49,974 nt of DNA. Origin: Spirogloea muscicola (lineage: Eukaryota > Streptophyta > Zygnematophyceae > Spirogloeales > Spirogloeaceae). A program made the position numbers and the translations under genes. The notes below the pieces were generated by a model. It did no database searches. It saw only the letters and a program-made list of their open reading frames with translations, and was not told the DNA's origin. This document shows, one piece after another, positions 23,601-49,967 of the stretch (position 1 is its first letter; every line of letters starts with the position of its first letter). The stretch lies in the NCBI GenBank assembly GCA_009602725.1, contig WELB01000183.1, positions 247,306 through 297,279 on the forward strand. Direction: 5' to 3'.

Positions 23601-24676
23601 GCGCCGTCCTCGCTCTCGGCGCCCAGCGCGCTCGCCTCCTCGAGCACGGCGGCATCCCGCACGTCCTCGTCTGTGCACAGCACCGTCACCTGGCCAATGC
23701 ACCGCTGCCGGCATCAGCTCAGACATCACAGCTTGCTGAGCCGCAGAGGCATCTGAAAACAATCTCGGACCAGGCAGCGGTCATGGCAAGCGCCGGGGGG
23801 CCGCGCCAGACCTGCCAGTTGTCGCGGGCGAGGTTCCGGTGATGGATCGGGCGGTGGCTGTCCGCCACGAACAGCGACGCGCAGCCGCCGAGGTCGAGGA
23901 AGCGGGCCAGGTCCTCGGTCGCGCCGCAGTTGATGAAGAGCGCGGCATAGGGCTGCGCGAGCAACCGGCCGCACGGCTGCTCAGCTGCATCGGGGTGACG
24001 GCCTTGCCGCAGCCGAGCGAAGCGCAAGCGTCCAGAGAGGGGCAAGAGGCCGAAGGCCGGCACCTCGGTCGCGTCGCGCATGCCCTTCTCGGCGTGCCCG
24101 AGGACGGTGTCGTAGCCGAGCACGGGGTATGCCGAGAAGCGCACCGAGTCGGACTTGAGCAGGTCCTGCAATACCCCGTGACGGCGCGGATGCCCACTTG
24201 AGAGTCAGCTTCCACACTCGGCATGCTCCCCACCTCACCATTGCCGCCTCACCATTGCCAGTTAGCCCAAATCACGGGCCTCCACAACTGGTACTCATTC
24301 AGCACGTGCCAGCGGACAAATGGAGCCTATATTGCCTTCCGGCGGCTAGGCTATCTGATTTGCGGCACCTAAGTAGAGGTTACTAAGTGATTATCCTCCA
24401 GGAAAAGCAATGGGAAAGCGATATTCGGCCCCCCCGGACCTTGTCATTTCTCTTCGGGCTGGCTGATCACAGCGCTGGGGGAGCCACTTTCATTCTACAC
24501 ATTCTGCTTTCGGAAAGGCCGACGGATTCCCCGGCGCTCACCAGAGCGATCTTGAGGGCGCAGAGGCTGTCGACGTCGCCGGCGGACACGAAGACGTGCA
24601 GCGTGCGGGCGGGGGTGCGGGCCGCGGCCTCCCGGAGCACGGCGTAGAACCGGTGGGGCTCCCTCTCGTGCACCAT
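20677..24676 (-). CDS. CDC45: CDC45, replicative helicase (CMG) subunit
   Basis: Minus-strand gene of at least a dozen exons. CDC45 joins MCM2-7 and GINS in the CMG helicase that unwinds DNA at replication forks. Firm exons: 24542-24676 (start; contains DVDSLCALKI), 23812-24165 (LLKSDSVRFSAYPVLGYDTV, LFINCGATEDL, FVADSHRPIH), 23319-23689 (acidic/Gly linker, basic KRRRRQAR, then YYGRGSYHGRSTGALLFE), 23093-23183 (ACVAVTDQYVHERI), then blocks RAWSEPGMRALRLLLARMG, RISASDVVYGVTALLES, QLQRAMVKQGSLALAKQ, TDLLAHPLALLKLLHFLM, 21120-21232 (RPLVVAATPPGARMTLVAG), 20898-20997 (FGMSFRKAAEKLG) and 20677-20724 (FLQELAIMELGR, stop). Joins of the firm exons are in phase; junctions between 23092 and 21357 were not all resolved. 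The linker after DSHRP is longer and more Gly/Glu-rich than I expect. Intron 1 holds a retroelement tail. Confidence 0.92.
24330..24500 (+). mobile_element. retroelement tail plus hairpin unit inside CDC45 intron 1
   Basis: Within the first CDC45 intron (24166-24541) the plus strand reads ARLSDLRHLSRGY-stop (stop at 24384). About 35 bases later comes the 3' segment 'accttgtcatttctcttcgg' and a hairpin unit ('gggctggctgatcacagcg' then 'gggggagccactttc'). This reproduces the tail-then-hairpin order of the family and lies antisense to CDC45. Confidence 0.75.
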
Positions 24677-25014
24677 GGCCGCACCATCTCACATCCTGCG
24701 TGGCTACCCCCACAGCTCCCACAGCTGAACCCGCAGCTCCCACAGCTCCTACAGCTCGAGGCGCCGCCTCAGCCTCGACTGCGGCCCTGCGCAGATTGGT
24801 CTCCCTCTCCGCCAGCAGCCGGGCCAGGGACGGTCGCTGCGCCCGCCGTCGCCGCCGCTGCCGCCGCCGCCGCCGCCGCTTCTTAGCTCCTCACGCCGCG
24901 CTAAGGCGGGCGGCCGCGGCGCTGAGGGGGCTGAACTTCGGGAGCTGGCCGGCTCACGCAGCAGCGAGGTAGAAGAAGGCGGGGTTGGGAGAGTGGGAAG
25001 TGGGGTAGGGCGAG

Positions 25015-25049
25015 CGCGAGAGAGAGAGAGGGGGAGGGAGAGGGAGAGA

Positions 25050-25137
<88 letters not shown>

Positions 25138-25155
25138 NNNNNNNNNNNNNNNNAG
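25015..25155. repeat. GA dinucleotide microsatellite with assembly gap
   Basis: An (AG)n tract of about 120 bp, initially interrupted by GGG, runs from 25019 to 25137 and ends in 16 N (25138-25153). The true length is therefore unknown. It lies upstream of the CDC45 start. Open frames of alternating Arg/Glu or Ser/Leu are artefacts of the repeat. Confidence 0.9.
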
Positions 25156-25424
25156 ACAGTGAGGGGAGAGGGGGTGAGGAGAGAGGGCGGGGGGGAGTTG
25201 GGGGGTGTGGAGGTGGGTGCTTTTTTTTCAAACGCGTCAAACACCCGCGCGCGGCCCTTGTGAGGAGGCTGACGAGCTGGCTGACGCTGTGGGCTTACTG
25301 GCGCTGACGAGCCCGTTTCGTCACACGGCCGGCTGCGTCGTCAGACGCGACGACCGGCGCCACCGCCCGCAGCTTGGGCCGACTTCCCGCCCCCGCCTTG
25401 TGAGAGCGCCCGATTTAAACGCGC

Positions 25425-26060
25425 TGGCTCGTTGGCCCAGGTCTACAGCCTGTCCATCTCCCTTCAGCGGTCCATGGCCCACGCCTTGCACCTGCGTGCT
25501 GGCCGTGCTCTCGCATCCTCCCCCTGCTCTACCATAGCCTCTTCAGTCCCCTTTGTAGCTGCTTCAAGCTTTTTCGGCCCCTTCGAACCTTTGTCAATTC
25601 TTCTTTGGGCTGGCTTTTCGCAGCCCTTGCCCCCATTGGGAGTGCCACTTCTTCGCTGCAGCCTCTGGCTTTTGTCAGCGGGGAGTCTTTTCTGGCAGCT
25701 ATCTGTCGGATTTGAGCCCCCATTTGGAGAGCCACTTCAATCTATTTCTTTCTATTTGCCTAGCCTGTGACCTTGTGCATTCTTTCTTGTGACCTGTGCG
25801 CTTTTGCCCCTTCGGACCCTGTCAGTTCTTTTCGGGCTGGCTGTTCACAGCCCTTGCCCCCTTTGGGAGAGCCACTTTCTCTTTCTCTGGCTCCGTTGAT
25901 GAAAGTATGGACACCCTACTCACCTGGCTGGCTTTTACAGCCTTTGTATATCAGCAGCCGCAGTCTTTTCATTCTTCATTCATTCTGGCTGGCCTTTCAC
26001 AGCCATTGCCTTACGTAAAGAAGCTGTTTCTTTTGTATATGGGCCCCACAAGAGCTTACC
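25425..26060 (+). mobile_element. retroelement tail remnants and hairpin cluster
   Basis: Around 25440-25510 the plus strand reads fragments of the element's coding tail (MAQVYSL, then in another frame RSMAHALHLRAGRALA), so the copy is frameshifted. It is followed at 25530-25660 by the 3' segment and a hairpin unit ('gggctggcttttcgcagccc', 'cccccattgggagtgcc'). More hairpin units follow at about 25835, 25930 and 25985, all plus-oriented. No functional gene is present. Confidence 0.7.
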
Positions 26061-26560
26061 TCAAACCCTTTTACGCGCCCCCTTAGGCAGGTGACGTACA
26101 TTTGTCCAATGTGCTTGCCCTTGTACTTGGCCACACATGGCTTCCCCATCTCTTAATACACACGCATTTTCCTTAGGAAGGAAAGAAGAGACGCTTCCAG
26201 CAGAGTGCAGTGGCTGTGAGAGGCCAGCCCAGAATGAAAAATTCACAAAGTTCGAAGGGGCCAGAGAAAGCTCTAAAGCACACAGTGACTCAAGTATCAC
26301 GAAGCACTTAGGATCCTCTGTTGAGCAGCTTCTTCTCGTTGGAAGTGCTACTTTCTGTACGGGTGACCCAGGGCAAGAAGGAGCAGCTCTTCTGAACGAA
26401 AGAGAGAGACGGTTCCAGTAGAGGGCGATGGCTGTGAGTGGTCAGCCCAGAAAATAGAATGCATGAAGTTCGAAGGGGCCAGAGAAAGAAAGGGCTCGCC
26501 CATTGAGGATATGGGCTGGAACAGCCAGCCCAGAAACAGAATGAGCAGAGCACAAGAAGA
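26060..26560 (-). repeat. cluster of minus-oriented hairpin units
   Basis: Three minus-oriented copies of the hairpin family lie at about 26205-26265, 26425-26460 and 26480-26540. Two carry the flank 'gttcgaaggggccagagaaa' and one the flank 'gctcgcccattgaggat'. Near 26110 'tgtacttggccacacatgg' resembles the element's CLPLYLA-coding stretch found also near 35580 and 49950. This is nested repeat debris. Confidence 0.65.
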
Positions 26561-26639
26561 AAGCGCTAAAAAGCACACAGTGACAAGTACCGCCGCGCCG
26601 TCCTCCCCCCACGTCGCCTCCCCCTCCGAGCCCTCCACC

Positions 26640-26975
26640 CCACGCTGCTGCTGCTGCTGCTGCTCCTACTCCTTCTCCGAGTCCCGCTCCTCCTCCTCCT
26701 CCTCCCAGTCCTCCACCACCTCCTTGCCTTTGCGAGACAGGGCCCGTTGCTGCTGGAAGAGACGCGCGCGCTCCGCTTCCACCCCACGCTGCTGCTGCTC
26801 CTCCTCCTCCTGCTCCTCCTCCTCCTCCTCCTCCGACGACGACGACGACGACGAGTTTCACTCCACCTCCTCCTCCTCCTCCAAGTCCTCCACCACCTCC
26901 ATGCCCTTGCGAGACAGGGCCCGCTGCTGCTGGAGGAAACGCACGCGCTCCGCTTCCACCCCATGTTGCTGCTGC
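26640..26975 (-). repeat. tandem CTC/CTG-rich repeat with coiled-coil-like minus frame
   Basis: A unit of about 150 bp containing 'cctccaccacctcc', 'gcgagacagggcccg' and 'cgctccgcttccacccca' occurs twice in tandem (about 26640-26790 and 26795-26970). A related piece recurs at about 28050-28160. On the minus strand the conserved reading is AERxRxxQQQRALSRKG followed by EVVEDxEEEEE, a charged coiled-coil-like peptide. In-frame stops interrupt it, so it looks like a decayed gene fragment carried by the repeats. Confidence 0.5.
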
Positions 26976-26981
26976 TGCTAC

Positions 26982-27996
26982 TCTAATGTCATCCGCCGTG
27001 AGGCCTTGCAAGATCTATCGTCCACAACACCCACAACCTTGTTAGTCACGTTGCTCTTCAGAGGATATCCATTGGCTAACTGTATATCTGTTGAGTAGGA
27101 GTAGGCCTCAATTATCGGGTGGGTATATATCTGTACACGCATCGTGTAACATGTACAAAGTTAGCTACGCCTATCAAGGAGTGACCTAAAGAGAGTTCTA
27201 TTGTGATGTCTGGTGTCTTTGAACTAAGAGCCTCCTCTGCTTCTTCTGGCATTCCTTGCCCTTGTAAAGTAGAAGGCACTTCAAGCTTGGCCATAGATAC
27301 ACGGCGCGCTTAACACTTCCTTTTGAAGAAGATTGAAGAAGTTAGCAAGTAGTATCTTGCTTTTTGCGCCATCCGACCCCCTCCAGACCTTGTCCATTCG
27401 TTTGGGCTGGCCTCTCACAGCCACCAGTCACTTTGGAAGCGCTGTTTCTCTTGAAGAGCATCATGAGTAACTTCATATGACACAAAGTCTGACTCTTTGA
27501 GACAAAGTTACTCATGAAGCTCTTCAAGAGAAACAGCGCTTCCAAAGTGACTGGTGACTGTGAGAGGCCAGCCCAAACGAATGGACAAGGTCTGGAGGGG
27601 GTCGGATGGCGCAAGAAGCAAGGTACTACTTGCTAACTTCTTCAATCTTCTTCAAAAGGAAGTGGTGAGCGCGCCATGTACCTGCGGCCAAGGGTGAAGT
27701 GCCTTCTACTTTGCAAGGGTAAGGAATGCCAGAAGAAGCAGAGCAGGCTCTTGTCATAGTGCACAGACACCAAATAGCACAATAGAAATCTCTTTAGGTC
27801 ACTCCTTGATAGGCTTCGTACATTTCACACAATGCGTGTACATTTATATACCCACCCGATAAACGAGGCCTACACCTACTCAACAGATACACAGTTAGCC
27901 AATGGATATCGTCTGAAGAGCAACGTGACTAACAAGGTTGTGGGTGTTGTGGGGACGATAGATCTTGCAAGGCACTCACAGCGGATGACATTAGAG
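26982..27996. repeat. 1-kb foldback palindrome
   Basis: The sequence from 26982 inwards ('ctaatgtcatccgc') matches the reverse complement of the sequence ending near 27996 ('gcggatgacattag'), and the arms continue with small differences to a centre near 27487. Matching landmarks include 'cacaaccttgttagtcacg' versus 'cgtgactaacaaggttgtg', 'gatatccattggctaac', 'gcttcttctggcattcc' and, at the core, 'gaagcgctgtttctcttgaa'. Arms are about 480-500 bp and highly similar but not identical. The innermost arms contain hairpin units in opposite orientation. No coding capacity is recognised. Confidence 0.9.
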
Positions 27997-27999
27997 TCG

Positions 28000-28600
28000 C
28001 TGTGTCTCAGGGTTTGGATGTAGATAAAGTTGGGCCTTATCAAGAGTGCCAGAAGACACCTCCTCCTCCTCCTCCGACGAGTCCCGCTCCACCTCCTCCT
28101 CCGTCTCCATGCCTTAGCGAGACAGAGCCAGGGCGACAGCCGGAGCCAGAGGAGACGCTTGCACTCCGCTGCCAGCCTCGCCTTGGCCGCGCACGATGCG
28201 CAGTGCGCCGCCTCCAGCTGCCTCCAGGCCTCCTCCAGCCTGGGGCGCTCCTCCCCCTCGCCCCCCAGCTCCTGAGCGACCCTGACCCGCATGTCCAGCA
28301 CGACGACATCGGCCCGGGCGCGCGGCGGTGTGCGGCCCCCGCCACCTGCACCTCGGCGGCTGCAGCGCCTCGGCCACAGTCTCCAGCTCCGCCCCCGTGG
28401 GCACGTGCCGCCGCCGTCGCCCGGCCCCACTGCCGCTGGTGCCTTCGCAGCCGCCGCCCTTGTTCACGCCGCCGCTACTGGGCAGGAAGTTCTCCATGTG
28501 CTTCAGGTGAGGCGTGACGGCCTCCATCCTCGACAGCAGGGCTGCTGTCGAGGACAGAGAGTTTGCGGCGGGCGCCACTCACCGACTTGCGAGTCGAGCT
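28000..28600 (-). pseudogene. possible captured host-gene fragment
   Basis: On the minus strand an open frame reads SRMEAVTPHLKHMENFLP, then a Gly-rich stretch and, in another frame, a charged helix (EEAWRQLEAAHCASCAAKAR). It looks like fragments of a coiled-coil-rich coding region, but frames are broken and I do not recognise the protein. The SRMEAVTPHLK part recurs on the opposite strand near 29795-29830 because it lies within the outer arm of the next palindrome. Confidence 0.35.
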
Positions 28601-29868
28601 GACGCTCAGCCTTGAGCGCTGCAGAATTGTGGAAGCGGACCTGCAGCTATATGCACGCTCAGCAGCACACTCCGAGCGCTCACGCTGCACCACACGAGAT
28701 ACGTCTTGCCCCTCGCCGACGTCGCCGGCTTCACAGCACTCGGGAGCCTGGCGCTGACCGAGACGCAGCTTCCGGTATCTGCTTCCTGCTGCCACACGCT
28801 GCCAGAGGTCTTGCTGGGTCCTGCTACTGGTGCCACTCGACTAGGAGGTCTGCATCCGAGCGTGAAAGCTCTTTTTTCCATACAGGTGATTGACCTTCGG
28901 CTTCAGATTCTGGAGATGCTGCTGACATTCAGATGCGTTAAGCTTGACCCTGTCAGGAGTCTCTCCTGCCAGCACATGCACGCCCGCCAACTGGTCAGTG
29001 CTTGCTCACAGTTGCAGGCACTGCACATCCAGAGCTGGCCCTGACATGACATGACTGTTCTTCTTGGTGACATACTCTCTACCTGCCCAAGTATCTGCGA
29101 GATCGGCCTTGTTTCTACTCGGATTCTCTTAGAGTGTAGAGTCCCCCTCAGTGTTTCTACCGCACTGAGTGGGACTCTACACCCTTAGAAATTCCGAGTA
29201 GCAGCAAGGCCGATCTCGCTTACTTGGGCAGGTGGAGAGTGTCAGAGAAGAACAGTCATGTCAAGTCAGGGCCAGCTCTGGATGTGCAGTGCCTGCAACT
29301 GTGAGCAAACACTGACCAATTGGTGGGCGTGCATGTGCTGGCAGGAGAGATCCAGAGTCAAGCTTAAGGCTGCTTCACGCATCCGAAATGTCAGCAGCAT
29401 CTCCAGAATCTGAAGCTGAAGGCCAATCACCCGTATCGTTAAAAGAGCTCTCAAGCTCGGATGCAGACCTCCTAGTCGGGTGGCACCAGTTGCAGGACCC
29501 AGCAAGACCTCTGGCAGCGTGTAGCAGCAGGAAGCAGATACCGGAAGCTAGCGTCTCGGTCAGCGCGAGGCTTCCGAAAGCTGTGAAGCCCGCGACATGG
29601 GCGAGGGGCAAGACGTATCTTGTGTGGTGCAGCGTGAGCGCTCGGAGTGTGCTGCTGAGCGCATGTAGCCCGGAAGGTGCGCTGCAGATCCGCTTCCTCC
29701 ATTCTGCATCACTCGGGGTTGAGCGTCAGCTCGACTCGCTAGTCGGTCAGTGGCGCCCGCCGCAAACTCTCTGCCGCCGCCCTGCTGTCGAGGATGGAGG
29801 CCGTCACTCCACACCTCAAGCGCATGGAGAAGGCGGCGGCGGCGGCGTGAACAAGGAGGGCGGCGGCG
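28450..29868. repeat. 1.4-kb foldback palindrome with LRR-like frame in both arms
   Basis: Left arm (about 28450-29140) and right arm (about 29170-29868) are imperfect reverse complements, centre near 29157. Landmarks: 'cttgttcacgccgcc' versus 'ggcgtgaacaag', 'gatggaggccgtcact', 'cagcacatgcacgcc' and, near the centre, 'ggccgatctcgc' versus 'gcgagatcggcc'. Both arms keep an open frame with Leu periodicity (LSSTLRALTLHHTRYVLPLA then GFTALGSLALTET), resembling part of a leucine-rich-repeat protein. A host-gene fragment therefore appears to be captured in inverted duplicate. It is not a complete gene. Confidence 0.85.
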
Positions 29869-29869
29869 G

Positions 29870-30245
29870 CGGGGTGGGTGCGGGGAGCGCTGACTGGGTG
29901 CGGTGCATGTGGTGCATGTGGGTGTGGAGCGGGGCGCCGGGTCCGCCTGCAGGCGTGGCGGGCTTTCTGCCCGCCAGGGGACGCCCTCGAGAACGCCGGG
30001 GGTTATCGACGGCGCACAGCGGGTGCCGCGGCGACAATCGACGGCTGTGAAATGGCCTGCTTGCGTGGGCGCCCAAAAAAGGGGGGAAAATGCCCCGCCT
30101 CGAGGTCGTGTCATCTGCCCCCACCGGCCGGGCAGCCCGCCACGCCCCCGCCCGCGTTTCCCCCCCTCCTTGGGCTCAGGTATACCGGATGAGATTGTCA
30201 GTGTCCCTCCAGCGGTCCATGGTCCATGCTCTACATCAGAAGAAA
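29870..30245. other. GC-rich stretch between palindrome and hairpin cluster
   Basis: A GC-rich 370-bp stretch containing 'gcatgtggtgcatgtggg', homopolymer runs (AAAAAA, GGGGGG) and a Pro/Arg-rich composition in every frame. I see no gene. Around 30190-30240 'ccagcggtccatggtccatg' resembles the retroelement coding tail (QRSMVHAL), so repeat sequence resumes there. Confidence 0.35.
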
Positions 30246-30625: not shown

Positions 30626-30649
30626 CCCTCGCCTATGCTGTCCACTCGC

Positions 30650-30864
30650 GTGCGGGCCGCGCTATCGCGGTGGACTTTCCTGCAGGCGGGTCGCTCGCCC
30701 AGGTGTATCGCATGCGCCTGGCCGTCTCGCTGCCGAGGTCAATGGCCCATGCGCTGCACCTGAGTGCCGGCCGAGCCCTCGCTGCTGCCTCTGGCTCTGG
30801 CCAGGGGACGTCCTTCCAGGAACATAGCCTCTCTGACCTGCGACTGCTTAGCAGGGGTTACTGA
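30650..30864 (+). mobile_element. retroelement 3' coding tail, most intact copy
   Basis: The plus strand is open to a TGA at 30862-30864. It reads VDFPAGGSLAQVYRMRLAV, SLPRSMAHALHLSAGRALAA and SLSDLRLLSRGY-stop without a frameshift, the clearest copy of the conserved C-terminal tail in the window. Upstream similarity is lost at about 30650, so the copy is 5'-truncated, as expected for target-primed retrotransposition. Downstream, a hairpin unit follows at about 30960. Confidence 0.7.
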
Positions 30865-30954
30865 GTATTTAGTAGCTGCTTTGTTTCTTCTTGTGTGCTT
30901 CTTCCTTAGTGCTTCGCCTTAGTGCTTCGCCTGGCCCCCTTCTTCTTGGGCTTC

Positions 30955-31655
30955 TTGTACTCTGCTCATTCATTTTTGGGCTGGCTGTTCCAGCCCCTAT
31001 CCTCAATGGGCGAGCTCTTTCTTCTATCGCGGCTGCTTCTGGATCGCGTCTGGATGCTTCTTTTCCTGCGTCGAGCTACTCCGACCTGATGTTGCTCACC
31101 CGGGGGTATTGAGCTTCCTGTGATTTCGTCGTGTCTTATTCTCTAGCTGCCTAGCTGTGTGTTTTTTGTTTTTTTCGGCTTTTGCCATTGTCCATTCTTT
31201 CTGGGCTGGCTTTGCTGGCCCCCTTTCTCTATGGGCGCGCACTTTCTTTTATCCTCAATGGGCGAGCCCCCTCTCTGGCTTTCGGCTGGGGGATAGCTTT
31301 CCGGCAGCTAGTCTGTCGGATCTGCGGCTCCTCACTCGTAACTAATGAGCGATCAATCCTCCCCCTGTGCTGCCATGACATCTTCAGGCCCTATGTAGCT
31401 GCTTAACGCTTGTCGGCCCCTCCGAACCCTTGTCAAATCTTTTTGGGCTGGCTTATCACAGCCCTTGCCCCCATTTGGAGTGCCACTCCTCTCCTTGTCA
31501 TGAACACCTGTATGCACCTGGCTGGCTTTTCACAGCCGATTCTTTAGTACCAGCAGCCGCTTTCCAGCAGCTGTTACTTGGGGGGTGTGCTCGGGGGCGC
31601 CTGCGGCGAGCTACTCTGACCTGCTGTTGCTCACTCACGGGAACTGAGCTTCTCT
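30955..31655 (+). mobile_element. string of alternating hairpin units and retroelement tails
   Basis: Three tail copies end in recognisable C-termini: SSYSDLMLLTRGY-stop (to 31112), SLSDLRLLTRN-stop (to 31345) and a SDLLLLTHGN-stop (to 31647). Between them lie plus-oriented hairpin units at about 30960-31025, 31190-31240 and 31432-31485. All elements share one orientation, giving a serial unit of roughly 250-300 bp. The tails differ by substitutions, so these are old separate insertions or diverged tandem copies. Confidence 0.7.
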
Positions 31656-31714
31656 CTGCATTGTCTTGTGCTCTGTAATGTAGTCCTTTTCTGGCTTCTC
31701 TTGCTTTTGGCTTT

Positions 31715-32045
31715 GGACATTGTCCATTCTTTTGGGCTGGCTTTGCCAGCCCCTCTTCTCTCTGGGCGAGCAATTTCTTTACTTTAGCCGCTTTCTGGAG
31801 ACAGCTCATGGTTCCCTCGTCAGGCACGCTTTTCGCGGGCGAGAGCCTTGAGGGCGACCCCCATGCACCCTGGAGCGGAATGGCACGGAGAAGCACCAGA
31901 GTAGAAAGTGCTCGCCCATAGAGAAGAGGAGCTGGCAAAGCCAGCCCAAAAAGAATGGACAACGTCCAAAGCTAAAGAAACTTTGTTCATTCTTTTTTGG
32001 GCTGGCTTTTCCAGCCCCTATCCTCAATGGGCGAGCCCTTTCTAC
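31715..32045. repeat. head-to-head hairpin pair plus third unit
   Basis: A plus unit at about 31715-31775 and a minus unit at about 31905-31965 are near-perfect reverse complements ('ttgtccattcttttgggctg' versus 'cagcccaaaaagaatggaca'). A further plus unit lies at about 31985-32042 with the alternate flank 'ccctatcctcaatgggcg'. The sequence between the pair is not itself palindromic. Confidence 0.75.
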
Positions 32046-32139
32046 TGCCGAGAAAGGACTACACTACAAAACACGACAAAACACAAGACGATGCAGAGGG
32101 AAGCTCAGAGTAAGGAGTAGAGAGAGACCCGACCGGAGG

Positions 32140-33303
32140 GCGTCAACTCAGTGAAGCTGTGAGAAAGGCAGCCCTGCTGCCTGCTGCTGTGCACATCGCT
32201 GCCGATCGCGGCTCGTTGCCGGTTCGCTCTGAAGACCTTGGCAGCGTCCCACTAGAGGCGAGTCTGCAGCGCGGGCCCAGGAGGTGGAGCTGCTGCCTAG
32301 CGGCAGCGCCGCAGGGCAAGTCTTCGGCTGTGTCGGAGTGCTTCCGCGTGGCGGGTGGTTTTCTTAATAGCCCCAAGCACTCAATGCTAAGAAGGACTCG
32401 GCTCTAACCTGCCTTTTAGGGACCGAACGCTACAAAAGACGTCCATGGGCCGTTTAGAGCTTTGGCTGCTTCTTCTTAATCTCGTCGATCTGATGGATTC
32501 CAGGCTGCAAGCAACTCTAATTTGCGGCTGCTGACGAGGTTTATGAACACCTACCTACTTGTTGTAGCCACTTGCTTAGCTGTTTGCTGTAGCGCTTTCC
32601 GGCCCCTTCGGACTCAGTATATCCTTTCCGGGCTGGCCTCTCACAGAGGAACATACCACAATGGCTGTGAGACGCCAGCCCAAAAGGAATGACACAGCCC
32701 ACGCCCCTTCTTGAAGAGCTGGTTGAGGCCTCAAGCTGTAGGCAGGGCACTTCTCCTCAGTGCTGGGGAACTCGGCTCTCCTTGGAGCAGCCGCAGACTT
32801 AGCCTCTTGTTTAAGTAACTGCACCCAAGCACGGAGCTCAATCTCCACTCGCTTTGCGGCTGGCGTCACCTTACACCACCTGTTGTGTGCTGCGAGTGCC
32901 ACAGCCACATCTAAATAGTCACACACTTTATTCAGACTCTGATTTACAACAAAGTACTTCAGCTTGACAAGTTGGCAGTGAAGTGACGCCTTGCGCTGTT
33001 TAAGTGATATTGAAGGCAAGAAGCTGATGCAGTGCAGCCACAGTGTGCCCTCTCATGGGAGCCTTGAAGCTCCTACATGTCGTTGTGGTGCTTTGAAGGC
33101 GCATGTGCTGCTCCACTTTCTCCAATGACATTATCCATGACGTTCTTATGAAGTGGGCGTGCAAGAGCAGCAGTGATGCTGAATGTAAGAAGCTGATCAA
33201 GAGGATAACTTGAGGTGATGCAAGGCAATACAATATACAAGAACATCAATGCTCCAAAAGCTAGCAGGCAACTAGCAACCACATCAAGTGAAGATGGATG
33301 ATG
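32140..33303. other. intergenic region with one tail copy and a tight hairpin pair
   Basis: At about 32505-32545 the plus strand reads SNLRLLTRF, a tail remnant. At 32628-32690 a plus and a minus hairpin unit lie almost back to back ('gggctggcctctcacag' and 'ctgtgagacgccagccc'), making a short foldback. A minus-strand open frame of 147 codons (32576-33019) contains Lys/Leu-rich helices but matches no family I know; it may be a gene remnant. The remainder towards 33300 is probably the CCB2 3' flank. Confidence 0.4.
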
Positions 33304-35923
33304 TCAGTCAGTCCGAGTGAATGTCAAGGCCAGTTTCGAACCCATCTTGCCGAGCCATGTCCTATCCTTCATTGTATATGCCCTCGGCACGTCTGAACTT
33401 ACCACTAGCAAGCCACCTACGTCACGTGAAATAGGTGCCATATTCCCTACTTCATGCAGTTGCGCATCAATGGATGACTGCAAGCTGGACCCCTGAAGCC
33501 CCCAGCTGTGCGCAAACAGGGACGCAGCGCTACTCGGAACCAGCGGCAGGAAGTCGTCTCCTGGACCAGATAACAACTTGTCATCAATATTCAGCCGTCG
33601 TTTCGGTGACAACTAGGTATATGATCACACTGGCTATTTTCTCTTCTTTCTTAAGTTGTGATGACGCCAAGCAAGTGCTGCGTGCCCAGAAAGAGCAGGC
33701 AAAGTGGGACAGGGCTAAGCAACTTCGTCAGTAGGAGCAGGGCTTGAATGATGCTTTTCATACCAGATCTCAAGGGCACGTAGAGTGAGGCAGTCTCCCC
33801 CACCGCGAGCCCTTTCAGCTCCGGTGAGTCTGCCGAGGCCTTCTGCACGCGGCCAGCCAGCTCCTCAAGGGCCACGCCCGGCTCGGCGCCGCCAACATCC
33901 CAGCTTCCTCTGGCGCACAAAATCTTTCCGCCTCTCCACACCAGCTGGCATAGATACATGGCTGATCAGCTCCTAAGCAAGCCCTGCTGCTGGAGTGCAA
34001 GCTTGCTGGTGTGGACACTAGCAAGCTTTTTGAAGTGCATGTCAGATTCTCGCATGATCAACAGGTGAAGATGGCAACCTGACTGATCATGAAGTACAGA
34101 GGTCCCACAATCCAAGCTGACTACTTGCATGCTTGATCGTTTTGACCTCAAGCAGAGCCACCACAGCATGGTGCTGCATGGTGTTTCTCTAGGCATGCGA
34201 ATGCAGAATGGGAGGCCTATGTCGTCCATTGGCCGACTTTCCCAAAAGTCGCCAAGGCTCAGGACAGTCATAGCTCTCACCACACCCGAGGTGGTGGTGT
34301 TGCGAAGGATGGCATAGGTCGCCCATGCAAGCTCCTGCCGCTCTGCATCACTTAGGGATGCCGCGAGGAGGAATGACTGGTTGCTTCCTTGGGCTGCCAA
34401 GGCCTCTCTTCCGCCCTGCGCTCTCTGCACACATGCGGCGGAGGATTGCGGCCTGACAAGCTGTACGTGTTGGGCCACAACGTCAGGCATCGTTGACTGG
34501 AAGGAAACATGTCGTATTCTGGAGTCACGAGCCTGGCTACCAGGCGAATGAGCTGTGTTAATATCAGATGCAAGTAAACGTCTAATCCATAGAGAAGACG
34601 TTTCCCATTGTAATTCCTCTAGCGGTGAACATCAATCACTACCGCAAGGACACACGAACAGATTCACACACAGCAGAGCTAGGATCAACCCAAAGGCACA
34701 CAAAGACGTTGGCTTTTACGCAGTTGTCCAGGCGATGTAGAGACCTTGAGCCTCCTGCCGAGATATGGAGTCGCAACGGCTAGGCCCGCCAGCAGCAAAC
34801 CCAGCACCTCCGACCTCTGCTCATTGCGAGCAATGCAGATTTGTCAAGGACTTTCACTCCGTTGCCTCAACTTCCAATATGGCCTGGGGTTTGGAGCTCG
34901 AAGTCTGAGATTTTGAACCTGGGAATTATGTGTGCATGCCTAGATGAGTGAGAGGTTGTCAGGCAGGTGAGTTGAGGAAGGTCCTAATAGCGTGCTGCTA
35001 CTGAGCGGCTGCATTTACCCTGAATTCGCTACGAGCGCAACTGTCCTCGAGCTGGCAGCACGCTAGTAGCTATCCCAGACTCATGTGTCTCATTTACAAC
35101 GTACAATACGAACAGAGGGCAGGGCCTTGTTGCTAAACCCAGCAAGTTGAAGCTAGCGAGGCGGGGGGCCAGCGCGCTGCTCACCCACTGAGCCGGTGCG
35201 ACGGCCCCCGCGGACGCGACGTGGTTGGCGGCCAAGAGGGCGCCCAGCAAGACGCCGACAGCGCGCGGCAGATCCGCGTCGTCGAAGCCGGGGATGCCTG
35301 CGCCCGCGGCCGGCTCGGGGAGGTCAAGGTCCTGGCTCTAAACCCTAACCCTAGACCTAACCCCTAAACCCTAAGTCCCTGACGGCATGGCCGTCTCTGC
35401 GCCTATTCGAGGTCTCTCCCCGACGGTCAGCGGGCCTCGGTGTCCTTTGCTCTTTGTGCAAAACAACACAACAACTCACTGATTTGTTCCTCTTCATAGC
35501 GACCTCTACATGCTAACTCGTGGTTACTGAGCGGGTCAGCTTAGCAGCAGCTACTGTACAGCTGATAGAGTGCTTGCCGTTGTACTTGGCCACTCAGCCC
35601 TTCCATCAATCAGTACACACTCCATTCCCTCTTCTCTGTCTTCTTGCTCTTTGTACAAAACAATACGACAACACAAGAATTGTTACCCATGTCATAAGAA
35701 ATACAGATTTGGGCGCGAGCCCGCTCGCACCGAGGGTGAAGCGGAAGACGGTGACGTCGAGGTCCGGCCCGCCGCCACCACCGCTGCCGCCGCCGCCGCC
35801 GGCCACCGCGACCGCCACCGCCGGCGCCGCCGCGGCCGCCGCCATGGGCGGCGGGGCTGCCGCGCGGTGCGCGACACTCCGGAAGGCTTCGTGGCGCTGT
35901 CCACTACTGAACGTCCGAGGCAT
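33304..35923 (-). CDS. CCB2: CCB2, plastid cytochrome b6 heme c(i) attachment factor
   Basis: Six minus-strand exons (35731-35923, 35185-35297, 34745-34819, 34281-34424, 33764-33944, 33304-33560) join in phase: 963 nt, 320 residues. CCB2 (HCF208), with its relative CCB4, belongs to the system that attaches heme c(i) to cytochrome b6 on the stromal side of thylakoids. The start at 35923 gives an Arg/Ser/Ala-rich plastid transit peptide. Conserved blocks follow: VTVFRFTLGIPGFDDADLP, a first hydrophobic segment (VLLGALLAANH), RSEVLGLLLAGLAVATPYLG (second membrane segment), LAWATYAILRNTTTSGV, WRGGKILCARGSW, LAVGETASLYVPLRS, FLPLVPSSAASLFAHSWG and GGLLVVSSDVPRAYTMKDR. Intron 1 (35298-35730) contains a telomeric repeat and a retroelement tail. 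I cannot fully exclude CCB4. Confidence 0.87.
35336..35376. repeat. interstitial plant-type telomeric repeat
   Basis: About five imperfect CCCTAAA units ('ctaaaccctaaccctagac' then 'ctaacccctaaaccctaa') lie in intron 1 of the minus-strand CCB2 gene, 39 bases from the exon 2 acceptor. The unit is the Arabidopsis-type telomere sequence. The chromosome does not end here, because CCB2 exon 1 lies beyond it, so the tract is interstitial. Confidence 0.85.
35480..35680 (+). mobile_element. retroelement tail fragments inside CCB2 intron 1
   Basis: The plus strand reads SDLYMLTRGY-stop (stop at 35528-35530), the tail signature. It is followed by a stretch reading CLPLYLATQPFHQSVHTPFP that parallels the CLPLYLAILAFNCFKYTKFF of the copy at 49.9 kb. 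The order is inverted relative to the coding element (tail before its upstream part), so two truncated copies are joined. Both lie antisense to CCB2. Confidence 0.65.
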
Positions 35924-35924
35924 C

Positions 35925-42639: not shown

Positions 42640-43140
42640 TCTGGGCGTACCCCGTCAAGCTGGCTGTCCTGCCTACTTTCTCTGGGCTGGCCAATCACAG
42701 CCTACTGGACGATCCAATCCCTTTTCCATTCCCTTTTCCGCTTGTCTGGCTCCTCGGACACTGTTCATTCTATTTCTGGGCTAGCCAACAACGGCCATCG
42801 CCCTCTCCTATCCAGCAAGCGCGGCCAGATTGACTCTACCTCCTCTTTTTGGGCAGGCCTCTCACCGGCACTTTCTCACAGGCATTCCCTTTACACTATA
42901 AGAGCTGTTCCACGACTATTGTGTGCGTTCTTCTCATTTACCTTTCATATCCGTCATCCCTTTAGGAGAGCTATTCTGCATCACTGCAGCGGTCCATGGC
43001 CCACGCTCTGCATCTGCGAGCTGGCCGTGCTCTCGCTGCGGGCTCTGGCTTTCGTCAGGGTGATAGCTTCCCGGCAGCTAGTCTGTTGGATCTGAGGCTC
43101 CTCACTCGTACTTACTGAGTGATCCATCCTCCCCCTGTTT
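42640..43140 (+). mobile_element. retroelement tail with hairpin units upstream of GCP3
   Basis: The plus strand reads QRSMAHALHLRAGRALAA (from about 42988), then SGFRQGDSFPAASLLDLRLL and TRTY-stop, ending at 43118, another intact-looking tail. Hairpin-derived units precede it at about 42680-42705 and 42772-42800. The copy lies within 650 bp of the divergently oriented GCP3 start and could affect its promoter. Confidence 0.7.
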
Positions 43141-43194
43141 TACCATAGCATCCTCAGGCCCCTTTGTAGCTGCTCACCGCTCTTAGGCCCCTCT

Positions 43195-43475
43195 GAACCT
43201 TTGTGCATTCTTTTTGGGCTGGCCTTTCGCAGCCCTTGCCCCCATTGGGAGTGCCACTTCTTCACTGTGCGTGGGCCGGCCCAAAGTCCCCTCATGTTGT
43301 CCTTGACACAAGCTCTTCCCAAAAGTAGCGATGACTGTGAAAGCCAGCCCAAAATGAGTGGATAAGTCTGAAGGGACCGGAGGGCGCCACACAGCTGCGC
43401 AAGTGAATGGCTTCTACAAATCAATGCTTAGTAGTTCTAGTCAGCAGCCGCAAGTCAGAGTAGTTTGCAGCCAGA
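43195..43475. repeat. head-to-head hairpin pair and minus tail remnant
   Basis: A plus hairpin unit (about 43207-43258, 'gggctggcctttcgcagccc') and a minus unit (about 43325-43360, 'gactgtgaaagccagccc') face each other. Immediately right of the minus unit the minus strand reads a degenerate SDLRLLT segment (about 43435-43465). Two elements in opposite orientation are thus joined 3' to 3'. Confidence 0.65.
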
Positions 43476-43533
43476 TAGTTGTCACCATAGCGATCCCTAG
43501 AAGCAGCCAGACAACGAACACGACTCCTTGACC

Positions 43534-44013
43534 TGTCGTGCCATATGATGTCGGCTGCCATATAACGTTGATGAGTTGGATTAGCACAGAAGTAGCCGAC
43601 AAATCATCCCCACGTGATCAACAGAGCCAACCAGCAAAAGTAGAAGGATGACTTGCAATGTTTAGATGATATACTTTGCAGAAATAAATAATACGTAAGG
43701 AATGGTAGTTGCAGTTATCTGGTAGTTGGAGCACAGCTGGTGAATTTGATGTCTCAATTTGATGCACTTGATTTTGATTATTTTGGAGACATCAAATTCA
43801 CCAGCTGTGCTCTAAACACCAGATAATCACAACTACCATACCTTACGCGTCTTTCATATAAAATTCTGCAAAGTATATTATTGAAGCATTGCAAGTTATC
43901 CTTCTACACTTGCTGGTTGGCTCTGCTGATCACGTGGGGATTGATTTGTCGACTACTTCTGTGCTAATCCAACGCATCGGCGTTATATAGCAGCGGACAT
44001 CATACGGCACGAC
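43534..44013. repeat. 0.48-kb foldback palindrome
   Basis: Arms of about 235 bp are imperfect reverse complements, with centre near 43773. Landmarks: 'gtcgtgccatatgatgtc' against 'gacatcatacggcacgac', 'ttggattagcacagaagtag' against 'ctacttctgtgctaatccaa', 'ccacgtgatcaacagagcca' against 'tggctctgctgatcacgtgg', and the core 'gctggtgaatttgatgtct' against 'agacatcaaattcaccagc'. AT-rich and non-coding, without hairpin units. It looks like a distinct foldback or MITE-like family. Confidence 0.9.
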
Positions 44014-44280
44014 AGTCCCCGAGGGCCTGGAGGAGGTGCCACAGCGCCAGCTCTGCATTTCAAGCTCTGCCCCGAGCTAACTCACTAACTCGCTCGTGCC
44101 CTTGCTTCCATCATATCACGGAGGGGCACTGGGCCCAGCCGCTGCACGCTCTGCCCTGGCCTTGACCGCTTAACTATGCCTATATATAAGTACACGCAGG
44201 CATACAATTATGTGCATCGACTTCCAGAAATCATACAACTTCTCAGAAGATTGTGACGCTCTTCCAGGATAAGCCATGCC
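44014..44280. other. short spacer before ARMH3 3' end
   Basis: Spacer between the third palindrome and the stop codon of the minus-strand ARMH3-like gene; presumably that gene's 3' UTR. No coding sequence or repeat is recognised. Confidence 0.4.
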
Positions 44281-47200
44281 TCACATGGCCTCCAGTTCAA
44301 ATTTGGGCGTGCTTGCCCACTGCAGCTGCCGCTGCTGTGCAGTCAGTGTCCTGAGAAGGGAGTGTAGTATCCTGGTTTCTTTTGTGCCCTCGGAGTAGGT
44401 ATGCATGGGACCCGCGTGCCTGTTCTTCAACTTCAGGCCAGTCGTGCCCTTTTTGCGCACGGCTGCCAGCGCCTGCTGTTGTGACGGAACACCTTGCACG
44501 CCCATGGCTGCCACCTGGACTTCATAGTGCTGCTTCACAGCTGCTATATTGACCTGCACAATCAAGCAATTAACCTAGCCTGTCATCAACGTGCACAGCA
44601 AGCAGATGCGACGCACAATTAAAGATCACATATGAAATGACCAACAAAGATGCAATGTTATACAGTCACATAGTACACCTGTAGAATGCGAAGCCAAGTC
44701 TATTGATGACAAGCTGCTTGACTTGGAGAATTGAGATTGACCTACCAACTTGATGGGACCACTCTTAGGAGAAGGAAAACGTTCAGCAGTTGCTAGGAGT
44801 CCCTCAAATGCTGTCATTTGGCTAATGACAATGGAGTGCATCCTTTCCACCTCCTCTGTGGCCGCGAGCAGATCACTCCCAAGGCCCAAAGATGACTCCA
44901 CCAATGCCACAATCAATCCAGCCAATTCAGGAATATCTGGCTTCTGCAATTTCTAACATGCCCTGATCAGAACCATGTCCTGCAAACTTATAGACCGATA
45001 GAAGAGGAGAGCCAACATAGTGTGCATCATGTACATTTACTGGAAGGTGCTCATAGGCAGGAATATTTCGTTTGCTTGCATTTATTACATGAAACTTCCT
45101 GTAAGGTATTGTTGATCCAAAAGCTGCACTGACCTGAAATGTGCTCTCTGAAGTGCACCACCGGCAAGTAAAGATGAGGTTATGCCAAAGCGCTTGCCAT
45201 TTGCAGCTTGTTGAGCTGAATGGCTTGCTTTTCAGCAGAATGATGCAAACAAGCTCTGTTGCCCTTGTGTACAAGTCAGCATCCAGATATTTGAAATCCA
45301 TGGGAAGTGCTATGGCCAGAACTTGACTAGCAAGGTCAAGGAAGGTGCAGGCCATGCTGCAAGATGATCCAGGAGGTATGGCACCTGGCAAAAGCACTGA
45401 CACGACCTGTGAGTTGTTGCAGTGCCTAGTGACCGAAGTTTAGGCAGATACTGTCACGGCACAAGATCGTTGTCAACTTGGCTTAGAGTCAGAGATCTAA
45501 CTGCATGTGCTTCAAGACTTACCATTGGACAATGGCAGCTCCTCAGAGATGGCCGCATAAGTCTTCGGATCACAGTTTGAAAGAAAGTTGTAAGCAGTGT
45601 GGTCCTCAATGAACATTCTCAGAATGATCAGACTTAGTTTACCCTTTAATGCACCACTTGGTGTTCTAAGGTAGCTCTGCTGGCACATTGTTGTGGACAG
45701 GGTAATGAAGGCCTTGAACACGTCTCCCCAAGAGTGCGACAGGTGGCTGCTGCTAGCACCACCAGGTGTACCTTGCACAAAGCCCGTTGGAGACCAAGCC
45801 TGGCAGCGCATGTTTTGATAGTCGCATCATTTGGCTGGAAATCCAAGGTACTGTGGCATACTCAAGAAACCTGCCACCTGATGCACGCAGGTCGCTCTTC
45901 TGGCCAGATCATGAGGTGCAGAGTTGGCAATCTCACATTCTGCGATCTCATAATTGGGTTGAGATGGAAGAGGAAGTAGATCAAAAGTGTGGCAGCAGTG
46001 GTGTTCGATGCCCCTATGTCGCAGTCCAGCATCTCATGGCTGGCACCAGTGACATTCGCAGGAGACTCTTGACTTTTGCCATTTGACACTCCTAACCAGG
46101 AGTTGACATATGCCAGGATAGCTTCAGTCGCTGACACTGTGGTTGGACCTGCAGAGGCAACTGCCAGATATCTGACAACACAAACCCCAAGCTCATGTTC
46201 AGTGTCCCTCCTGCATGCTTGCTAACATACAGGTCGAAGTGCTGTCACAATGCTCTTGAGTCTGGTGTGACTGTGGCTCAAGGGGGAAGCCTCATGGGAT
46301 ACATACTAGCTGGACTCAAACCCAGCTTAAGGATCATCCACAGAGTACTCATCATGGACACGATGTACTACTAGCATATACTAAGGACCTCACAGCCTTG
46401 CAATCTTGACAAAGTGCAGGATTGCACCTCGAGGTAGAGAGGCTTCGTCTCTCACTTGGTCGTGAAAGAAAAGATGCAGTGGTGTTGAGAAAGGTGAGGA
46501 TAGGTGCCATGGGGGAGGAGAGCTTGGACACATAAGCATTTGGACTCTCCTTCCAGAGGAGGAGCAGAAGGAGACATAATGTGGCATCGAACTCTAGTCG
46601 CTTCCTCTCCTGAGGTATCTTCAGGGTCAGGACAGAGACGAGCCCATCAAATATGTCACAAGTGAAGAAAAAGGAAGCCACAGAGTTGGTGTTGATGTTC
46701 TCTGTAGCCATCAGTATCACCAAGAAGATTCTGTGAACAGCAGACACTGTGCTGTCAGTCTATCAACTCAAAGAACAATACATATATTACTTCTCAGAAA
46801 TTACATTCTCATTCTTGGAAGAACCTAGAGACAACATCAGAAGTAGCTATCCATGATAGTATTATTTGACTTTGAGGGAGCGTACCGTAGGCCTAAGGCC
46901 TTCAAGAGACAAGGGACATTGTCTTGAACAAGAAGGGAGGTAATATCTCCAAATAGCCGCTTGAAGAACGTATCAGCATGGTCAATGGAACCGGCTACCA
47001 AGGAGATAATAGTAAGGCCCTGCACAAGAGAATATCCCTAATTTGTTACCAAAATTTGTGATTGTCAATCAGCAGCATCCTTACTTTTATAAGAACAAAG
47101 CTTCGGCTGGGCATCCTGACATCACATGGTTGCCTGACTTGTCACGAGCAGGAGCTTTTACCAAACAATTGGAAGTTTGATGATGCTGAAAGCAGGCATC

Positions 47201-47973
47201 AGTCGCCTTTCAGCTAAATAGTGAACATGCGCTGACCTGCTCATTGAAACGCTTGCGGAGGATCTCGCGAAGAAAAATTGATAGGGTCTCAAGTGCGTGT
47301 GCAACACGAATGAAGTTGCCATCACTCAAGTACCTGGCAAATGTACGTGGAAGACAAGTGAGCACTTGGCTGAGGCAGCAGTTTGGTCAGACATGGTCTT
47401 AGCTGCTTTCTCAATGTCAGTCAAGTAGCTGCCCAGGAACACAAGCTCTTACAAACTCATTCAAGTAGCACAACGGTAAGATCCTCAAGGAGATTGCCTC
47501 TTAGAGAACCATCGTGGCCACAAGTAGAGCAGCACAACAGCGGAGCATGGATTACCTAACACAAGTGCCGAAGATCTCACTGACTGTGCTCTTCTGACGG
47601 CCAATGAAATCCTCTTCCGTCAACCTTGCCAGGCGCCCAGTCAAGTAGGCTTCGTTCACCTGCTCTTGAAGCGCAATGCAGCAAGTTCAAAGCATTTGAG
47701 AGTTAGTCTCTGCAGGAGCTTTGCGGCATCTGCATGAGAAGGCTGACTAGCCATTGAAGCGGACGGGAGAAGGCCGAGGCGGGGCACCTTGAGCAGCAGG
47801 AGCTCGTCCCAGAAACGCTGCAGGCCCTGGCGGCCGGCGAAGCCCTGGTCGCGCGCCGCCTGCAGCGGGCTGCGCCCTTCGAACACGTCCTCGTACACGC
47901 AGACGAACTTCTCCCGCAGCGCGGGCTTGAGGCCCGCGCCGGCGCCCGGCCTGCTCAGCGCCGGCGGCCTCAT
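44281..47973 (-). CDS. ARMH3: ARMH3-like armadillo-helical protein (C10orf76/DUF1741)
   Basis: Minus-strand exons 47788-47973, 47556-47659, 47237-47333, 46886-47019, 46428-46730, 45871-46171, 45523-45799, 45134-45406, 44746-44943 and 44281-44553 give about 715 codons; human ARMH3 is about 690 residues. One junction (45523 to 45406) is out of phase, so a small exon or different splice site there is unresolved. In animals ARMH3 binds the Arf factor GBF1 and PI4KB at the Golgi; the plant homologue's role is little known. Family blocks: REKFVCVYEDVFEG, FWDELLLLKVNEAYL, NFIRVAHALETLSIFL, LLLLLLWKESPNAYVSKLSS, LIYFLFHLNPIMRSQ, LSLIILRMFIEDHTAYNFLS, KWQALWHNLIFTCRW and IPELAGLIVALVESSLGLG. The C-terminus ends KFELEAM. 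Starts at Met 47973 beside a CGG tract. Confidence 0.88.
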
Positions 47974-48079
47974 GGGGCCATCGCTCGCCGGTTTGTGCGC
48001 CCGCCGCTGGGCCGAGGCAGGTCCCGAGGAGCTCGCAATTCCCTGTCGCGGTCCGATCGAGCATAGATCCGCTAGCGGT

Positions 48080-48125
48080 CCGGCGGCGGCGGCGGCGGCG
48101 GCGGCGGAGAACGCGGCGGGAATTT
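48080..48125. repeat. GGC tract upstream of ARMH3
   Basis: A (GGC)n tract at about 48083-48108 lies roughly 110 bp upstream of the ARMH3-like start codon, as for the other genes in this window. It is probably in its 5' UTR or core promoter. Confidence 0.6.
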
Positions 48126-48149
48126 TGAAGTGTCGGTGGCGGATTAGCA

Positions 48150-48780
48150 GACCGCGGCTGCTAATGTTCTTTCTTTCATATCAGCAGCCGCTTTCTTTCT
48201 TTAATGTGTCCAGAGCGTCGGTGAAAGCCAGCCAGGTGCATACAACGGGGTGATCATAATTGCATTAGCTGAGCCACTGGCTAGGCACTGGGGGGGGCAT
48301 GGAGCGTGTATGAGTGTGTGTATTGAGTTTGTAATGAGTGATGAAGGGTCAGACCTCGTACACTCCTTCGGGCGCCCTTGCAGCAGCCTCTGGCTTGCGC
48401 AGCGGGGTTGCTCTTCCTCCCCTCAGCTCATCTGACTTCCTACTGCTGACACGGGGGTATTGAGGGCGCCCTGTCTGCCTAGCCTTTGGCTCCGTCATGA
48501 ACATCTGTATGCATCTGGCTGGCATTTCACAGCCGATTCTTTCATATCAGCAGCCGCTTTCTATCTATTTGGCTTTTCCAGCCCCTATCCTCAATGGGCG
48601 AGCCCTCTTTTTGGGCTGGCCTCTGCCGTAGATCGGAAGAGCTGTTTCTTGAAAGAAGAAAGGGCTCGCCCATTGAGGATATGGGCTGGAACAGCCAGCC
48701 CAAGAAAAAGAATGAACACAGTTCAAGAAGAGGGCTAAGCGAAGCACTTAGGTGAAGCACTAAGAAGAAGCTGTTTCTTG
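48150..48780. repeat. retroelement tail and inverted hairpin pair
   Basis: At about 48425-48463 the plus strand reads SSDFLLLTRGY-stop, a tail copy. A plus half-unit (about 48568-48605) and a minus unit (about 48658-48715) share the flank 'tatcctcaatgggcgagcc' and its complement, facing each other across about 60 bp. 'ttctttcatatcagcagccg' occurs twice (near 48170 and 48540), marking a direct duplication that also duplicates a 'tggctggcatttcacagccg'-like phrase. Confidence 0.65.
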
Positions 48781-48789
48781 AAAGACTCT

Positions 48790-49588
48790 TCTACTAGAGG
48801 GCGATGGCTATGATTGGCCAGCCTAGAAAAAAGAATGAACATAGGCTTGTGGCCAAGTCCAAAGGAAAGCACATTGACAGATGTACATCAACCGCTGCTA
48901 AGCTGACCCACTCAGTAACCACGAGTCAACTGCCAAAGTTCGAGAAAGAGAAGTGCAGCTGCTTAATCAGGCGCATAAGTGGAGTAATATACTTTGGTTT
49001 AGATATAAGTATAATCTTGTAGTTAGTAGGTAAATCAAGTCGAATAAGCGGCTGCAAAAGCCAGCAGGGTGCATACGTGGGTGTTCGCAAGTATGTTAGC
49101 CAAGCCACAGTCTAGGAACACAGGTTGCTCTCAGTAACCACCGTGTCAGCAATAGGTAGTCAGATGAGCTGAGAGCTGAGAGGAGGAAGAGCCAGAGGCA
49201 AAGTAAGAAGTGGAATAAATAGCTCTTACAAGATTTAGGTGACAGCTGAGAGTGGCCAGCCAAAAGAAAGAGGCTCGTCCAAAGAGAGAAGGCGCGCAGT
49301 GCGCATGAAATTGAAAGGGAGGCTTGTTCAAGCCAATACATTGTTCAAGCAGAGGCTAGTGCAAACTAAACAAGGCTACATGATGCGGAGACCTACCCTA
49401 AGGTGCCTAAGGTGACACTAGTATCCACAGGAGAGCACAAACAAATCTGACAAGCTAACTTGGGGAGCTGAAAGAGAAAGCGCGGCCAGATTGACTGGTG
49501 GCTGGGAAAGGCCAGCCCAAAGGACTGGACAAGGTCTGTAGGAGCCGGAGTGCGAAGGACTAGGACGAAGACATCATCCAGGGGACGC
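48790..49588 (-). repeat. minus-oriented hairpin and tail debris
   Basis: Minus-oriented copies of the hairpin family lie at about 48800-48840, 49240-49295 and 49495-49535. Minus-strand tail-like segments (SSDYLLLTRW and similar) are seen near 49130-49175, and near 48915 a 'gtaaccacgagtc' motif matches the complement of the tail end. The 'tgtattggcttga' motif (minus) lies at 49330-49345. No gene is recognised. Confidence 0.5.
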
Positions 49589-49967
49589 TCAGTAACCTCT
49601 AGTCAGGAGATGCAAGTCTGAGTAGCTAGCCGGCGGAAAGACGTCGCCTTGACGGAAGCCGGAGGCTGCCGCCAAAGCTCGGTCTGCGCGCAAGTGAACC
49701 GCGAATGCAAGGGACCGCCAAACGCATTCGGAAGACGTGAGCGAGAGACCCGGCGACATTGAAGCCGGGCTGCTCTCCCTGCTGCCCGAGGCGGCGGGCC
49801 GCTGCACGCCGCGCAAGGAGGTGAAGCAAGTCAAGCCACTTTGTGCCAAAGGCTCCGTGCACGTCGACTGCCAGTAGAACAAACTCGTCGCCCACCTCCA
49901 AAGGGAAGAATTTCGTGTATTTGAAACAATTGAAGGCCAGTATGGCCAAGTACAGAGGTAAGCACAT
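49589..49967 (-). mobile_element. retroelement ORF C-terminal end (longest copy, frameshifted)
   Basis: Reading minus from 49967: CLPLYLAILAFNCFKYTKFF, then PLEVGDEFVLLAVDVHGAFG, TKWLDLLHLLARRAAARRLG and GFNVAGSLAHVFRMRLAV. A frameshift near 49730 follows, then AFAVHLRADRALAAASG and SYSDLHLLTRGY-stop at 49589. This is the longest version of the dispersed tail. The pattern FxPLxxxxxGAFGxxxxxLLxxLA resembles the region after the reverse-transcriptase domain at the C-terminus of non-LTR-like elements in algae and protists (from memory, uncertain). The window edge cuts the upstream part. The copy is inactive because of the frameshift. Confidence 0.6.

Follow-up and report, generated by a model that had tools for sequence, protein, structure and literature searches.

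Why does the same short peptide recur at so many places in one stretch of algal DNA? The stretch, called the window below, comprises 49,974 nucleotides of Spirogloea muscicola (contig WELB01000183.1 of assembly GCA_009602725.1, positions 247,306 to 297,279). It comes from a zygnematophyte alga, and these algae are the sister group of land plants. The peptide is SDLRLLTRGY, called the tail. An initial annotation of the window had attributed it to a family of non-LTR (long terminal repeat) retroelements, an idea that proves right in substance. The tail is very probably the C-terminal end of the one long protein encoded by a group of non-LTR retrotransposons of the restriction-like endonuclease (RLE), or R2-like, type.

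In the six frames of the window the peptide is matched 10, 13 and 16 times when up to two, three and four substitutions are allowed. The corresponding means were 0, 0.1 and 2.1 (maxima 0, 1 and 6) in 60 dinucleotide shuffles of the window, and 0, 0.05 and 1.6 for 60 scrambled peptides compared with the real window. About two of the 16 loosest matches are therefore expected by chance. The scan bears out the claim of at least twelve loci with a common tail, and the places named for it do carry the tail.

The protein that ends in the tail

The assembly searched has 153.1 Mb in 471 contigs. A 49-residue tail query returned 15,806 first-look candidates, and all of the 150 scored were matches (150/150). 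One locus, on contig C149 (L039), has an 833-codon open frame that ends in SDLRLLTRTY and contains the reverse transcriptase (RT) model RVT_1 (E 7e-18). With this element as the query, 54 of 17,976 candidates were scored; open frames of more than 1,000 aa, which may include runs of N, appear in more than 30 of these 54, mostly at 65-68% identity. Long open frames ending in the tail have 1,418 (L047), 1,350 (L048) and 1,521 codons (L049), all three free of N, and 1,267 codons in L053-L056; the counts run from stop to stop and so include some sequence 5' of the likely start. RVT_1 is above its cut-off in five frames scanned (L039, L047, L048, L049 and L053; E 2.5e-13 to 1e-18), and two 5'-shortened frames (L043 and L041) have a partial match below it. 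A full-length frame joining an RT to the tail, which the initial annotation had proposed to look for, is thus present. Neither full-length copies without an RT nor an intact multi-exon host gene family was seen among the copies read.

Some other candidates were rejected. The matches of the first RT search (L001-L008) are LTR-type elements and do not belong to the tail-bearing family. They represent retrotransposon pol frames (1,003 aa in the stretch examined) at several places in the genome, and L002, the one scanned by Pfam, has RVP, RT, RNase H and integrase domains. A giant gene, suggested by open frames of up to 15,922 aa, was dismissed on the inspection of four such loci (L018, L019, L023 and L036), all of which cross runs of N; the 15,922 aa frame itself lay outside this inspection. 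Among viral contigs, 18 stretches fit a pattern and none was confirmed as a relative.

The protein consists of weak zinc-finger-like motifs at the N-terminus, the RT, a CCHC finger with a D-D-K block, and a C-terminal extension with the consensus end S-D-L-x-x-L-T/S-R-G/T-Y. It is useful to compare this layout with that of R2, in which N-terminal zinc fingers, RT, CCHC and RLE follow in the same order (PMC10499050). The CCHC and D..D..K block lies C-terminal to the RT, where R2 has its RLE, and the D-D-K region has an RLE-like secondary structure. The best PDB matches, both by RT sequence profile and by fold, are R2 proteins (R2Bm, R2Tg and the R2 of Platysternon). The motifs and the domain order are in line with the secondary structure and the matches to R2 folds, and the C-terminal block looks like an RLE, with a structural model that is weak.

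Two results weigh against this assignment: the RLE domain alone has no Pfam match, and a profile of the RLE only has no PDB match at E up to 10. A search with the 1,418 aa open reading frame (ORF) by itself brought up no PDB entry at an E of 0.01 or less, whereas L039 by itself and the profile each had matches. The missing sequence match of the RLE part would suit a long interspersed nuclear element (LINE) of the apurinic/apyrimidinic endonuclease (APE) type, such as L1, Zepp or a Dualen-like element, whose endonuclease was missed and whose CCHC and D-D-K are only a C-terminal zinc-knuckle region. CCHC fingers are common in LINE ORFs (PMC10499050), and the nested arrays of 5'-truncated copies formed by Zepp are somewhat alike (PMC8226300, PMC3446292). 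However, four long ORFs gave no match to an APE model at E up to 1, the RT profile is closer to R2 than to LINE-1, and the D-D-K region after the CCHC finger has an RLE-like secondary structure. An APE-type element is thus quite improbable, and the assignment to the RLE group fits because of the domain order and the lack of an APE match.

At least eight lineages can be distinguished by eye from the tail and the 3' untranslated region (UTR): A (SDLRLLTRTY, L039), B (SDLRLLSRGY, L048), C (SDLMLLTRGY, L047), D (SDLHLLTRGY, L049), E (SDLYVLTRGY, L053), F (SDFLLLTRGY, L050), G (SDLFVLTRGY, L043) and H (xxLRLLTRGY, L034). For lineages F, G and H the 3' part is all that was recovered. The C and E proteins retain the tail at an identity of 39-48%. 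Among lineages A-D, dN is 0.21-0.26 and dS 1.25-1.45; between E and a second E sublineage (L010) the values are 0.13 and 1.25. The conservation of the tail could in principle reflect a cis RNA signal for target-primed reverse transcription (TPRT) and not a peptide, and the position of the tail at the RNA end beside the 3' UTR, an end which short copies retain, would agree with this. However, its codons vary synonymously (including TCG/AGC and CGT/AGG) with the residues unchanged, in lineages that are no more than 39-49% identical overall, which makes a pure RNA signal very improbable. Since the residues hold while the codons change, and dN is far below dS, the tail is, judging from the sequences, conserved as protein in active lineages and decays after insertion.

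Copies, 5' breaks and 3' ends

The exact 31-base codon pattern of the tail occurs 4,549 and 4,630 times on the two strands of the assembly, 9,179 times in all (control 0). The group thereby accounts for a large number of repeats in this genome, at about one tail per 17 kb, and in the listed part of contig C1 the tails are spread throughout. Motif counts drop upstream, from 9,179 tails to 2,364 DVVxT (RLE; control 109) and 329 YADDT (RT; control 0), a rough ratio, as the motifs are unequal in length and decay.

The ends of the copies were compared in lineage A, at 30 loci that include the window's own copy and have differing flanks. The 3' end ...GGGAGTGCCACTTCT is retained in 27 of the 30. The 5' break, measured at 22 loci, is spread over codons 468-787 of L039; L014, which coincides with the reference, was left out, as were four loci with N upstream. 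Junction words of at least 7 nt, representing short target site duplications (TSDs), are present at 8 of these 22 loci versus 35 of 462 mismatched-pair controls, and the other 14 loci have no such word. The mean junction word of 5.8 nt was reached in 0 of 1,000 shuffles (shuffle mean 4.6), and the longest word, at L030, has 12 nt. Judged by eye, the 3'-junction bases are TTC-rich. These variable 5' breaks and the fixed 3' end support the earlier observation that similarity extends upstream by different amounts. Insertion of 5'-truncated non-LTR copies fits because of these ends, the falling copy gradient and the short TSDs in a minority of loci. An RT, copies cut short on the 5' side with a constant 3' end and, in a minority, short TSDs place the group among the LINEs.

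Three E-lineage copies (L054, L055 and L056) are 99.93-99.98% identical to L053 over 3,927-3,984 bp, with different flanks. The group has thus been recently active, since four copies are near-identical (99.9% over 3.9 kb); the window also has young copies, of lineages A and F, close to copies elsewhere (Table 1). A host gene family or satellite with a common C-terminal domain would explain why the protein is under purifying selection. It would not explain the RT in the long ORFs scanned, the thousands of tails on both strands, the varying 5' ends or the long near-identical copies in different flanks. Its probability is practically negligible, and a host gene family is ruled out by the RT-bearing, dispersed, 5'-truncated copies.

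The 3' UTR is short. A total of 106 tail-to-3' regions were found, of which 70 are different after merging of near-duplicates; ten loci (L001-L009 and L014) were excluded, as were stretches that contained N or were too short. A GGGCTGGC...CAGCC-type hairpin pattern is present in 38 of the 70 listed regions, which rules out one 3' hairpin for all lineages. It lies 42-164 nt past the stop (at most 120 nt in 34 of the 38) and was recognized by eye in lineages A, B, C, D, F and H. Lineage G has it far downstream or not at all, and lineage E has a different palindrome (GGCCATTTGGCC). Some of the regions lacking the pattern have a variant of the hairpin or are interrupted by another insertion.

Element sequence also follows the 3' ends of the copies. 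In successive stretches past the 3' end (100 bp each, taken every 120 bp) it was found at 17, 19, 16, 15, 10, 12, 8, 8 and 8 of 27 loci and then at 6 of 26. The best row in the first stretch is on the same strand in 14 of 17 cases (two-sided binomial about 0.013, computed by hand), and at 8 of 27 loci the next element begins within 10 bases of the 3' end. The copies thus cluster, mostly head-to-tail, as in the order B, C, A, F, C at 30.67-31.76 kb of the window. The R2-like appearance of the endonuclease, the eight or more lineages and this clustering go beyond the initial annotation.

Comparison with known elements and a possible mechanism

The group resembles R2 in domain order and in its best PDB matches. 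However, the copies are dispersed and do not keep to a single target; the long ORFs scanned gave no match to a Myb model; and the tail lies past the last aligned residue of R2Bm (1107). Targeting confined to 28S rDNA, as in the R2 clade, disagrees with the 9,179 dispersed tails and the differing flanks of the 30 A-lineage loci, the 28S sequence itself not having been searched for.

The HERO clade comprises RLE elements, many of which are not site-specific (PMC4640811), and is similar, by description only, as a dispersed RLE type. Utopia encodes one protein with one to three N-terminal zinc fingers, RT, and a zinc finger plus RLE, and it targets U2 snRNA (small nuclear RNA) genes (PMC4640811). 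The protein layout is similar here, but the copies are dispersed. Among 46 of 997 candidates scored, there is one strong U2 snRNA match (L057 1501-1696 on contig C190, 175 bits) and six others of 51.6-79.7 bits. The strong match is uninterrupted, the nearest element sequence lying about 460 bp ahead of it on one side and 77 bp beyond it on the other; this and the dispersal of the copies speak against targeting confined to U2 genes. A weaker U2-like match (L058, contig C26) is surrounded by a dense nest of several lineages.

Zepp and ZeppL are L1-type elements of chlorophyte algae, with nested 5'-truncated copies in clusters that are mostly one per chromosome (PMC8226300, PMC3446292). The nesting of 5'-truncated copies in or beside each other is similar, but Zepp is of L1 type with about one cluster per chromosome, whereas the copies described here occur throughout contigs. 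L1 or Zepp membership would require an APE before the RT, and none was found in the four long ORFs scanned. Dualen/RandI, a green algal LINE, has an RLE besides the APE. It differs in the same respect, as both endonucleases would be expected and no APE model was detected in these ORFs. The tail-bearing group very probably falls among the RLE-type LINEs, an already known kind, and its clade may be HERO or a separate one.

The protein would bind the 3' UTR of its own RNA, and the RLE would nick DNA at TTC-rich sites. The freed DNA end could then prime reverse transcription from the 3' end of the RNA by TPRT. Synthesis would mostly halt early, leaving 3' fragments with short TSDs. The TTC-rich end of an element may in turn serve as a new landing site, and clusters would follow from this.

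These features allow us to propose, tentatively, a separate and undescribed clade of RLE-only LINEs in zygnematophytes. Its defining C-terminal extension, with the conserved end SDLxxLTRGY, may help to bind either the 3' RNA or the target, and the TTC-rich 3' ends of its own copies may act as landing sites, giving about ten thousand 3' fragments in one genome; the full proposal is somewhat more likely to need revision than to stand. In open-access titles and abstracts, which give partial coverage, no report was found of RLE-type LINEs in zygnematophyte algae. RLE-type LINEs are an old and often site-specific branch of LINEs and are the basis of R2 gene-insertion tools. A dispersed, multi-lineage and recently active group in a streptophyte alga would offer natural variants of R2-like proteins that target more loosely and have an unusual C-terminal region.

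The window copies and other repeats

Table 1. Element copies and remnants in the window, with strand and the match or method behind each.
Position	Strand	Copy	Match or basis
5334..5477	-	H-lineage 3' remnant, frame lost after tail (5448-5477)	77.6% to L034 copy
5871..6550	-	E-lineage piece of upstream coding sequence, tail absent	74.7% to L053 piece q872-1569, E 7e-120
6868..6931	+	C-lineage, 3' hairpin end only	98.4%
19756..20014	+	H-lineage copy, tail 19915-19944 without stop	tail scan and mapping
24340..24498	+	Copy with tail 24354-24383, stop and 3' hairpin	
25410..25885	+	A-lineage 3' pieces, tail deleted in first	mapping
30668..31023	+	B-lineage 5'-truncated copy, tail 30832-30861	79% to L048, E 1e-91; 89% aa over 64 residues
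31029..31267	+	C-lineage 5'-truncated copy, tail 31080-31109	tail scan and mapping
31273..31496	+	A-lineage 5'-truncated copy, tail 31316-31345	86%, E 1e-71
31497..31564	+	F-lineage, 3' end only	92.6%
31600..31757	+	C-lineage 5'-truncated copy, tail 31615-31644	tail scan and mapping
32516..32646	+	H-lineage remnant, tail 32516-32545 without stop	tail scan and mapping
35497..35592	+	E-lineage copy, tail 35498-35527	84.5% to L053
36258..36590	+	Diverged copy, tail SGMYVLARGY and stop near 36.35 kb; coding part nearest G, 3' hairpin (36547) nearest H	
42975..43261	+	A-lineage 5'-truncated copy, young, tail 43086-43115	97.6% to L039, E 5e-139
43430..43459	-	Tail remnant SDLRLLTRTT, frame lost after	tail scan
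48372..48562	+	F-lineage 5'-truncated copy, young, tail 48431-48460	98.4% to L050 copy
48850..48944	-	E-lineage remnant, tail LELWQLTRGY 48915-48944	tail scan and mapping
49103..49192	-	F-lineage remnant, tail 49135-49164	tail scan and mapping
49273..49470	-	G-lineage copy, tail 49421-49450	87.9%
49468..49892	-	D-lineage copy, tail 49592-49621	two matching pieces, L049 aa 1407-1521

When element pieces are mapped on the window DNA, 60 rows cover 5,895 bp; a few of the rows are chance matches in GC-rich sequence (as at 4127-4208) or hairpins counted twice, once per strand. The similarity had been said always to reach the stop. This does not hold for the tails at 5.4, 19.9, 32.5, 43.4 and 49.1 kb, which lack the stop or the frame, for the copy at 25.4-25.7 kb, in which an internal deletion took the tail, or for the tail-less upstream piece at 5871-6550. 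The copy at 49.6 kb is indeed the longest tail-bearing stretch, with the end of the RLE region and the C-terminal extension; its strand has to be corrected to minus. Pfam matched nothing in one frame of the window (31-3300, plus strand, stops as X), and Rfam gave nothing on the window at gathering score.

The F-lineage 3' part at L050 lies near a beta-tubulin gene, on the opposite strand. Genes for beta-tubulin and FtsZ, named by eye from translations, are present in the assembly, and several tubulin regions occur in threes.

The window also contains palindromes. In the one at 27022-27952 (arms of up to 248 nt, 94% complementary), two D-lineage 3' ends face each other, at 27342-27451 (plus) and 27527-27636 (minus). 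A long imperfect palindrome at 28490-29831, a repeat or foldback element, has its arms in six pairs nested within each other (57-163 nt, 86-96% complementary). Part of its arm has 40 matching places, itself included, scored among 66 candidates, many of them clustered on contigs C204, C14 and C61. A smaller palindrome, at 43533-44015, has arms of 62-85 nt that are 87-89% complementary.

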